The position numbers were made by a program, and so were the translations under genes. Positions 37,069 to 39,062 of a DNA stretch of 58,906 nucleotides are shown one piece after another (within the stretch, counting starts at the first letter, position 1; each line of letters opens with the position of its first letter). Source of the stretch: Butyricicoccus sp. Marseille-Q5471 (GTDB lineage: Bacteria; Bacillota; Clostridia; Oscillospirales; Butyricicoccaceae); NCBI RefSeq assembly GCF_951230135.1, contig NZ_CATNVC010000012.1:1-58906 (forward strand), read 5' to 3'. The notes under the pieces were generated by a model. The model ran no database searches, was not told the DNA's origin, and saw only the letters and a list, made by a program, of their open reading frames with translations.

Positions 37069-37395
37069 GTGGCATCCTCACTGGAATTTGTACAGTTTGT
37101 ATGCGAGCAATTGTCCGACGCGGGCGAAATCGCTTTTAAGCGGATGTTTGGTGAGTTTGGGCTATATTGCGATCAGAAGTTTTTCGCCACGGTGGAGGAT
37201 GATCGGCTGTGTGTCAAAATCACCGATGCAGGGTGGGCGCTGATGCCCAATGCAACAGTCATTGAACCGCATGCGGGTGCACGATATTTTTATATTGAGG
37301 ATTTAGAGGATCGTGACTTCCTGCGGGAGCTGACACTGTGTACCTGCGCCGCGCTGCCTGCCCCTAAACCGCGCAAACCCAAAAAGGGCGTCTGA
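37069..37395 (+). CDS. TfoX N-terminal-domain protein
   Basis: A 108-residue protein resembling the N-terminal domain of TfoX/Sxy: FVQFVCEQLSDAGEIAFKRMFGEFGLYCD (in part), FFATVEDDRLCVK and YFYIEDLEDRDFLREL. In gamma-proteobacteria TfoX induces competence; stand-alone N-terminal-domain proteins in Clostridia have no known role. It starts with a GTG three bases after rsmA and ends with a Pro/Lys-rich tail (PKPRKPKKGV). The stop codon lies inside a hairpin shared with the convergent gene at 37403. Confidence 0.8.
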   Translation: MASSLEFVQFVCEQLSDAGEIAFKRMFGEFGLYCDQKFFATVEDDRLCVKITDAGWALMPNATVIEPHAGARYFYIEDLEDRDFLRELTLCTCAALPAPKPRKPKKGV

Positions 37396-37412
37396 GCACG
37401 GCTCAGACGCCC
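37386..37412 (-). terminator. Terminator for the minus-strand small-protein cluster
   Basis: GGGCGTCTGAG (37386-37396) and CTCAGACGCCC (37402-37412) form a perfect 11-bp stem. On the minus strand it is followed by TTTTTGGG. The stem contains the stop codons of both convergent genes, so termination sequence and coding sequence coincide. Confidence 0.75.
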
Positions 37413-37729
37413 AGCACGAGCAGCACCCCAATCGTGATGAGCAGTTCCCAGTCGGGATCGTCGCCGTCGGAGAGAATGAACCAGACGATGACGAGCACGA
37501 GTACGGTATCCATATCCAGCTTGAGGTTGGATAAACGTCCGCCGAGCGCCTGCGACAGGTTGGAGAATACAGATGCGCTCTGCGGCGGCGTGTGTGGATT
37601 GTGATGCGGCGGCTCGGCAGCGCTAGGTCCGGCGGTCTGCGCTGCACCGGGCGGATCGGTATGTAGAGACTGCGTGTCATACAGGGGCTGCGCGTCGGCC
37701 GAGGTTTCGGTCAAATAGCGGTTATACAA
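37403..37729 (-). CDS. Hypothetical protein, C-terminal membrane hairpin
   Basis: A 108-residue protein that I do not recognise from a named family. The first 50 residues are Pro/Ala/His-rich and probably disordered. Residues 52-68 (VFSNLSQALGGRLSNLKLD) look helical. The end has two short hydrophobic segments, DTVLVLVIVWFIL and LLITIGVLLVLGV, separated by an acidic turn SDGDDPDWE. Similar acidic-turn hydrophobic pairs recur in Oscillospiraceae small proteins. It is the third gene of a three-gene cluster (38425 down to 37403). Confidence 0.65.
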   Translation of the reverse strand: MYNRYLTETSADAQPLYDTQSLHTDPPGAAQTAGPSAAEPPHHNPHTPPQSASVFSNLSQALGGRLSNLKLDMDTVLVLVIVWFILSDGDDPDWELLITIGVLLVLGV

Positions 37730-37747
37730 AGCAGTTCGTCCCCCTTG

Positions 37748-38140
37748 TTAAAGTGATTTGGTGCCGTCATCTTCGACAGCATCATTTTTGTTTCCGAATT
37801 GTCCGAGCGCAGAGCGTGCCATGCGCGCCATGCTGACCAGACGCATCGCGTGGTCAAACTGCGTCGCAACCTGATCGGTTACGAAGGGTTTGACGGCGTT
37901 GAGCAACGCGCGTTTTTCTGTACCGACTGCGGTTTGGCCGCTCTGCACGATGTTGCCGATGACAGGCAGCGCACGCTGCATCAGCTCGGAAGACGGGTCA
38001 TAGTCTCGCGAAGATGATTGGGGTGGGGGAGACGACGGCGCGCCGCCGCCTGCCCCGCCCAATACCTCGGAGGCCATTTTCATCGCGTTCTGCAGTGCGT
38101 CCGGATCGCTGAGCAGCGAGGACAGCAGATCGTTATCCAT
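37748..38140 (-). CDS. Hypothetical protein of the small-protein cluster
   Basis: A 130-residue soluble protein. A conserved-looking N-terminal helix (MDNDLLSSLLSDPDALQNAM) is followed by a Gly/Pro/Ser linker (about 28-48). The C-terminal helical part has the pattern RALLNAVKPFVTDQVATQFD (in part) then AMRLVSMARMARSAL. I recall uncharacterised Oscillospiraceae proteins with the same layout: a short helix, a linker, and a block of the form LLxALKPFL...DxAxxL. No enzyme motif, signal peptide or membrane helix is seen. It is second in the cluster, after the 90-residue gene. Confidence 0.68.
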   Translation of the reverse strand: MDNDLLSSLLSDPDALQNAMKMASEVLGGAGGGAPSSPPPQSSSRDYDPSSELMQRALPVIGNIVQSGQTAVGTEKRALLNAVKPFVTDQVATQFDHAMRLVSMARMARSALGQFGNKNDAVEDDGTKSL

Positions 38141-38152
38141 GGCAAAGCCTCC

Positions 38153-38425
38153 TTATTTCGGAAATAGCATGTTTTTGAGCTGATTTACCAGAGTCGCGCC
38201 CTCTTTGCTCTGCATCAGCTTCTGTGCGAGGCGGGCAGCTTCACCCATATCGCCTCGCTGAGCGGCCTGTGCCGCGCGTTCCAAATCCGCGGCATTCTGC
38301 TGCGAAATGGCCTGTGCAGCCTTTTTTCCATCAGGCGTGTTGAGTGCGGCCTTCAGTTTGTTGACCGTCTGATCCCCTCCGCTTTTGGAGGCAAGCTCGT
38401 TCATCAGTTGATTCAAATCCGGCAT
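38153..38425 (-). CDS. Hypothetical helical protein, first gene of the small-protein cluster
   Basis: A 90-residue, Ala/Gln/Lys-rich, entirely helical protein without Cys. It begins MPDLNQLMNELASKSGGDQT, passes through DGKKAAQAISQQNAADLERA and ends LVNQLKNMLFPK. No named family is recognised. GGGAGGG lies just before the ATG at 38425. It is the promoter-proximal gene; gaps of 12 and 18 bases to the next two genes indicate one transcript. A sigma-E-like site lies upstream (38457-38486), which would place the cluster in the sporulating mother cell, but this is inference. Confidence 0.68.
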   Translation of the reverse strand: MPDLNQLMNELASKSGGDQTVNKLKAALNTPDGKKAAQAISQQNAADLERAAQAAQRGDMGEAARLAQKLMQSKEGATLVNQLKNMLFPK

Positions 38426-38456
38426 ATGTCAATCCCTCCCAAAGTTCGTTTGGTGC

Positions 38457-38486
38457 ATTATATGCCGATGTTGTATAAAAATGTGA
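38457..38486 (-). promoter_or_regulatory. Possible sigma-E (sporulation) promoter of the small-protein cluster
   Basis: On the minus strand, TCACATT (38480-38486) is one base from the sigma-E -35 KMATATT, and CATATAAT (38457-38464) is one base from CATACAMT, with 15 bases between. A TATAAT is also contained in the -10, but no sigma-A -35 is well placed. It diverges from the phosphodiesterase promoter. Confidence 0.4.
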
Positions 38487-38495
38487 AACCATGGG

Positions 38496-38524
38496 TTTAC
38501 AATGTGTGGTTCACGGTGTAGAAT
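38496..38524 (+). promoter_or_regulatory. Sigma-A promoter for the YfcE-like gene and coaX
   Basis: TTTACA (38496-38501), 17 bases, TAGAAT (38519-38524), 32 bases before the TTG start at 38556. Confidence 0.6.
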
Positions 38525-38555
38525 ACCACTATATCCGTCCTTGGAGGGAATCAAT

Positions 38556-39062
38556 TTGAAAATATTGGTCTTTGCCGACTCGCATGGGCGCAGTGCAGGA
38601 ATGTTTTACGCAATCGAAAACGAAAAGCCTGATGCGGTCATCCATCTGGGGGATTATACCGGTGATGCGGATGAGCTTGAGCGTGCGTATTGTGCGATTC
38701 CGGTCTACCGCGTGCGCGGCAACAACGACTATGACCCGGATATTCCGCTGCATGCGGTGATTACGCCGGCGAATGTACCGATTTATATCACACACGGGCA
38801 CAAGGAACGTGTTTCCATGTTGGCTTGGGGCATTCTGCCGCAAAAAGCGGCGGAGGAGGGCTGTGTGCTCGCGCTCTATGGGCATACGCATCGCACACTG
38901 CTTGAAAAGGCGGGCGGCGTGTGGGTGATGAATCCGGGCAGCATCAGCCTGCCGCGTGGCGGCCCGGCAAGCTATGGCCGGCTAACGCTGGAAGGCGGTC
39001 GGATTGACCGACTTGAAATCCTCGACGAGGACGGACATTTGCTGCACGAGCAGCGGTTTTAA
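38556..39062 (+). CDS. YfcE/MJ0936-family metallophosphoesterase
   Basis: A 168-residue calcineurin-like phosphodiesterase. The two-metal site residues appear in order: FADSHG (residues 6-11), HLGDYTGD, VRGNNDYD, THGHKE and YGHTHR, ending in VMNPGSISLPRGG. Such enzymes hydrolyse small phosphodiesters in vitro; the physiological substrate is unknown. The TTG at 38556 with TGGAGGG upstream is preferred over an ATG at 38502, which would lie inside the promoter. coaX follows 29 bases downstream. Confidence 0.9.
   Translation: MKILVFADSHGRSAGMFYAIENEKPDAVIHLGDYTGDADELERAYCAIPVYRVRGNNDYDPDIPLHAVITPANVPIYITHGHKERVSMLAWGILPQKAAEEGCVLALYGHTHRTLLEKAGGVWVMNPGSISLPRGGPASYGRLTLEGGRIDRLEILDEDGHLLHEQRF

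Follow-up and report, generated by a model that had tools for sequence, protein, structure and literature searches.

The SpoIIIA operon (spoIIIAA-AH) is a multi-gene sporulation operon with small membrane proteins, and sporulation proteins of the YjcZ kind are short and strongly hydrophobic. Lists of sporulation genes usually begin from Bacillus subtilis, so that genes restricted to Clostridia easily escape notice. Here we analyze a cluster of three small genes (P1, P2 and P3) in a window of 58,906 nucleotides, which is the whole stretch of DNA under study. As a putative multi-gene sporulation operon with small membrane proteins the cluster resembles SpoIIIA, but P1-P3 are without a Pfam match. 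Like the YjcZ kind it would comprise short, strongly hydrophobic proteins with a link to sporulation. However, neither P1-P3 nor eight neighbouring proteins at a related locus (L190) match an NCBIfam or Pfam family over the cut-off, and P3 differs in that its two short hydrophobic segments are joined by an acidic turn.

According to the available text of Saujet et al. (2013, PMC3789822), the sigma-K and sigma-E mother-cell regulons of C. difficile likewise combine a CATA-type -10 with AC or ATA at -35, and likewise contain many small uncharacterised members. The P1, P2 and P3 families are not named among the members in that text, and the promoter assignment here, in contrast to those regulons, comes from sequence only. 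No description of the cluster was found in the literature searched (including PMC3789822, PMC7438776, PMC8340488 and PMC3533761; most subscription papers and all supplements were outside reach). Overall, the best explanation for the whole would be a late mother-cell operon for three small spore-envelope proteins, to which we assign somewhat less than an even chance.

Gene unit and protein anatomy

The three short genes lie close together on the (-) strand. P1 (38153..38425, 90 aa, ATG start) comes first and encodes a predicted soluble helical protein, P2 (37748..38140, 130 aa, ATG start) is used as the marker of the system, and P3 (37403..37729, 108 aa) starts with TTG. P1 and P2 were called as open reading frames; for P3 this was complemented by hydropathy and a structure model. 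The intergenic gaps measure 12 nt (P1-P2) and 18 nt (P2-P3), and a Shine-Dalgarno-like purine stretch precedes all three starts. The unit ends in an intrinsic terminator whose stem (37386..37412, (-) strand) spans the P3 stop codon: read along the gene strand from 37412 to 37386, a 12-bp stem is followed by TTTTT (fold -24.9 kcal/mol, z -4.8). Judged by conservation the genes are real, since all three are found at neighbouring coordinates in 23 of the 24 genomes of the window's genus (Agathobaculum-like). The exception, G020, is 80% complete and has no match to P1, P2 or P3. A Pfam scan places a convergent TfoX_N gene to the left of the cluster and a divergent Metallophos_2 gene to the right. 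The terminator palindrome (37386-37412) also overlaps the end of the TfoX_N gene.

Hydropathy shows no strong hydrophobic stretch in P1 or P2; the latter has a conserved LLxALKPF/Y block and a long C-terminal helix. Two hydrophobic stretches are found at the C-terminus of P3, both by hydropathy and in the model. The structure models are weak (mean pLDDT 64 for P3, 63 for P2). In that of P3, residues 1-49 are without modelled structure and helices cover residues 50-68, 73-88 and 94-107, the last two being hydrophobic with an acidic turn between them. P3 thus combines a conserved MYNRYL start with a Pro-rich linker and a C-terminal hairpin of two short hydrophobic helices. The Agathobaculum relatives compared likewise begin P3 with a non-ATG codon read as L, and in Butyricicoccus relatives the start reads MYN-YL. 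Because the hydrophobic helices measure just 14-16 residues, the model makes a shallow or re-entrant form of the hairpin as likely as a full transmembrane pair.

Scans of P1, P2 and P3 against Pfam, NCBIfam and PHROGs yielded no family over the curated cut-off (Pfam, NCBIfam) or at a clear E-value (PHROGs). The best weak matches were MLLE for P2 (E 0.23), a hercynine small protein (E 0.045) and phrog_28570 of unknown function (E 0.0075) for P1, and a DNA polymerase III model for P3 (E 0.14). PDB sequence searches gave no credible relative for any of the three proteins; matches of the P1 profile to designed helical proteins and TAL repeats (E 4e-4) were rejected as composition. The fold search with P2 returned nothing at E <= 0.001, and no fold match was obtained with the two weak models. 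The initial annotation had described tightly spaced genes with a shared terminator, a two-segment hydrophobic end of P3 and no named family for any of the proteins, and all of this agrees with our results.

Homology between P1 and P2 was considered as well, but is not supported by profile comparison (Prob 12.3 and 0.6). At two loci of one family (L153 and L190) one ORF of some 207 aa sits at the expected position of P1 and P2. A P1-P2 fusion is not claimed here, because the N-terminal half of this ORF fails to align to P1 (Prob 20 and 0.3).

Conservation and link to sporulation markers

Single-sequence searches of 60 relatives detected P2 in 44, P3 in 38 and P1 in 36. Gene order was counted in family and order loci selected by a match to P1, P2 or P3 (22 non-duplicate loci). 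With clean profiles P1 precedes P2 in 17 of them and P3 follows it in 19, against 18 and 21 for the same type of count with iterated profiles; both kinds of profile contain members of these 22 loci, and the iterated P1 profile includes some P2 sequences, the clean-profile recount being given alongside.

At the class level 60 loci were picked for P2, originating from 59 genomes of the class sample, some of them of the window's order. P3 adjoins P2 in 39 of the 60 when the order-level P3 profile is used (23/40 in genomes unused for profiles) and in 56 with a wider iterated profile (36/40 in such genomes). P1 is more divergent and was found in 11/60 loci with the clean and 20/60 with the iterated profile. 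From 56 loci tried, 46 ORFs preceding P2 were aligned (L191, clearly in the wrong frame, was kept in), and this alignment matched the P1 profile with Prob 87 and E 3.7e-6, compared with Prob 12.3 and 0.6 for P1 against P2. On the basis of these class-locus counts and the upstream-ORF match, P2-P3 is firmly shown by sequence comparison to be the core of the system, whereas for P1 membership is shown within the order and likely outside it.

Matches to the P2 profile are present in 160 of the 293 genomes of the class sample, in 186 of the 198 of the order sample and in 16 of the 199 of the phylum sample (the window's genome and G048 included). Six of the other 14 phylum matches are at E 1.5e-9 or below and the remainder at 1e-4 to 7e-4; among the six strong ones, P3 comes after P2 in L250, L251 and L253, and P3-like genes come before P2 in L249. 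These counts point to a system mainly of Clostridia rather than of Oscillospiraceae. The expected co-conservation is thus confirmed, both in the genus and with P1 and P3 beside P2 in most of the 22 family and order loci. The suggestion that the cluster is lineage-specific has to be dropped, since it extends through the class Clostridia and also occurs in a small number of genomes from other classes. In three phylum genomes of one genus (L255, L260 and L261) we observed an ORF of 360-375 aa with a weak P2 match, and in L255 the KPY/KP block of P2 seemingly occurs about three times.

SpoIVA was found in 220 of the 293 class genomes at E <= 0.001, 218 of these being over the family cut-off. P2 and SpoIVA occur together in 153 class genomes, P2 only in 7, SpoIVA only in 67 and neither in 66 (Fisher 4.5e-20, a test that ignores ancestry). 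SpoIIIAE, sought at the class level in the 7 genomes having P2 without SpoIVA, is present in all of them, so that no class genome with P2 is without a sporulation marker. Taken together, SpoIVA or SpoIIIAE occurs in 160/160 P2-positive class genomes and 186/186 P2-positive order genomes.

Within the order SpoIVA was found in 190 of 198 genomes (186 over the cut-off), and P2 is absent from 5 of the 8 SpoIVA-negative genomes against 7 of the 190 SpoIVA-positive ones (p 1.7e-5, ancestry ignored). The SpoIIIAE search covered those 8 genomes and the 7 SpoIVA-positive genomes without P2, and was positive in 11 of the 15. Four order genomes from three families (G348, G363, G372 and G483) are without SpoIVA, SpoIIIAE and P2, and G352, the other sampled member of the genus of G363 and G372, has SpoIVA and P2. 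G416 has kept SpoIIIAE, with SpoIVA and P2 absent. The link with sporulation that had been suggested for the cluster therefore stands, given a marker in every P2-positive genome of class and order. Wide occurrence in non-sporulating lineages, which the initial annotation had named as a finding that would count against it, was not seen, and none of the four order genomes negative for SpoIVA and SpoIIIAE has P2.

P2 is not present in all spore formers: it was detected in 153 of the 220 SpoIVA-positive class genomes and 183 of the 190 SpoIVA-positive order genomes. Judging from the marker genes, spores can form without P2, because it is undetected in 67 class and 7 order genomes with SpoIVA. Three genomes of one order genus (G428, G450 and G489) have kept SpoIVA and SpoIIIAE with P2 undetected, and by gene content this genus is a natural example in which sporulation genes occur in the absence of the system. 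The many spore formers without P2, and a distribution that partly follows phylogeny, would suit a vegetative envelope or housekeeping system with a sigma-A promoter that merely shares ancestry with spore formers. In three families, however, P2 and the sporulation markers have been lost together, and we regard this explanation as very improbable. Sporulation-specific expression of the operon in the mother cell appears highly probable to us.

Promoter upstream of P1

The sigma-E consensus is KMATATT-N14-CATACAMT. The upstream motif of the window, TCACATT-N15-CATATAAT at 38486-38457 on the (-) strand (-35 TCACATT at 38480-38486, -10 CATATAAT at 38457-38464), deviates from it by one mismatch per box, exactly as the initial annotation had it. 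Upstream regions of the genus contain CACATTTTT in 23/24 loci, L025 being the one that deviates; TCACATT is separated by 13 to 15 nt from the -10, which reads CATATACT or CATATAAT. An AC core at -35 and CATATAMT at -10 are present at the right distance in 24/24 genus loci. ATA at -35 is seen in 0/16 genus loci. Of the 34 other loci having the -10, 23 have AC only, 4 have ATA only, 1 has both and 6 have neither, which makes 24 with AC and 5 with ATA.

A relaxed -35/-10 pattern occurs upstream in 42/98 loci, against 1/98 on the reverse strand and 2/98 downstream, so the motif is more frequent than chance; among the 98 loci are 16 of the genus, which are not independent because the pattern was drawn from the genus after viewing it. 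The whole AC form is found in 16/16 genus, 13/22 order and 11/60 class loci (reverse strand 0, 1 and 2); of the class loci outside the order a minority has it. For the looser ATATT form the counts are 0, 1 and 18, which amount to background because the reverse strand gives 0, 1 and 16. Upstream of spoIIIAA, callable in 7/14 control loci (2 with a stricter gene call), the AC form occurs in none and the ATATT form in 3, unlike the promoter of P1-P3. The upstream regions of spoIVA were dropped as a sigma-E control, as spoIVA apparently lies close behind another gene. Genus alignment, enrichment and the AC form support a promoter of mother-cell type, sigma-K-like, at 38457..38486 on the (-) strand.

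The -10 consensus of sigma-K is CATANNNTA, with TA at positions 8-9. This TA is absent here: the sequence is CATATAATG in the window and CATATACTG in almost every genus locus. The window has 18 nt between AC and the -10, one more than in 13/16 genus loci. As far as the available text of PMC3789822 goes, the -10 of sigma-E and sigma-K is very similar and the difference lies in the -35, with ATA for the former and AC for the latter. The common -10, the missing TA and the limited mismatch to the sigma-E consensus would all agree with an early sigma-E system for engulfment or forespore-membrane remodelling, with P3 in the engulfing membrane and P1 and P2 as regulators. Against this stand the spoIIIAA controls and a -35 core that is AC, not ATA, throughout the genus, which make such an early system rather unlikely. 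Because of this AC core sigma-E is not the better assignment, and we lean towards sigma-K as the factor. Of the sigma-E-like promoter proposed initially, the conserved mother-cell type is retained and sigma-E as the factor is not.

A strict pattern (TCAY-N16-18-CATATAMT) gave 3, 6 and 2 matches in three genomes (reversed control 2, 0 and 0), with no recognised sporulation gene downstream of them. For these reasons the exact motif defines no regulon and was rejected for that use.

The promoter region also bears on the vegetative explanation, as CATATAAT includes TATAAT with TTCACA 19 nt upstream in the window. A sigma-70 scan of 37300-38600 (16-18 nt spacing), however, found no site on the gene strand; moreover, the CACATTTTT block is conserved in the genus while the preceding base varies, and most -10s read TATACT. 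Both points argue against the vegetative explanation. The one hit of the scan is a sigma-70-like TTTACA-17-TAGAAT on the (+) strand (38496-38524), which probably serves the divergent phosphoesterase, a Metallophos_2 phosphodiesterase gene at 38556..39062 on the (+) strand (Pfam E 2.3e-26). Together with the mother-cell-type promoter on the gene strand, this site apparently gives the intergenic region a divergent pair of promoters that differ in kind. The metallophosphoesterase is not a fixed partner, being the divergent neighbour in just 13/60 class loci; it is a frequent neighbour and probably not part of the system.

Possible role and additional hydrophobic proteins

For P1-P3 we infer the following location, timing of expression, protein contacts and role. 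The operon would be read in the mother cell, probably late, from a sigma-K-type promoter that is perhaps shared with sigma-E. P3 would insert its C-terminal helical hairpin in a membrane, the outer forespore membrane being the likeliest, and from there extend a flexible Pro-rich arm whose conserved tip contains Tyr. As soluble helical proteins, P1 and P2 may associate with P3 or with one another, and the resulting scaffold would tie the coat layers to the outer forespore membrane. Such a scaffold role is put forward tentatively, with less confidence than the late mother-cell operon as such.

One or more extra ORFs of 40-95 aa, each combining two hydrophobic stretches with a strong ribosome site, were found in 11/60 class loci, against 1/60 on the reverse strand, when searching the same strand within 1.7 kb upstream of the cluster. 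It is conceivable, though still doubtful, that Clostridia possess a spore-envelope system consisting of the P1-P2-P3 core and lineage-variable hydrophobic hairpin proteins, which would form a membrane-coupled layer under the coat. The small size of the proteins, the short hydrophobic hairpin and the variable linkers would also fit a spore-membrane regulatory module, in which P3 would be a membrane micro-protein in control of a protease, a channel or a sigma-factor step, and P1 and P2 would serve as adaptors; yet in some families the several additional hairpin genes next to the cluster look more structural, and we consider this module unlikely. If true, the spore-envelope system would be an undescribed one, missed by lists based on B. 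subtilis. With a core that tracks the markers across the class, and losses matching the loss of sporulation in one order, it would make the assembly of the spore envelope in gut anaerobes directly accessible to genetics. In addition, the gene core is a candidate marker for predicting sporulation from genomes.

The extra hydrophobic ORFs lie upstream of P2 in L190 (636-2276), L151, L152, L153, L156 and L161, and further in L165, L167, L182, L205 and L210. The encoded proteins measure 50-90 aa and have two strongly hydrophobic segments; some are Gly/Cys-rich, and some contain the same hydrophobic block twice.
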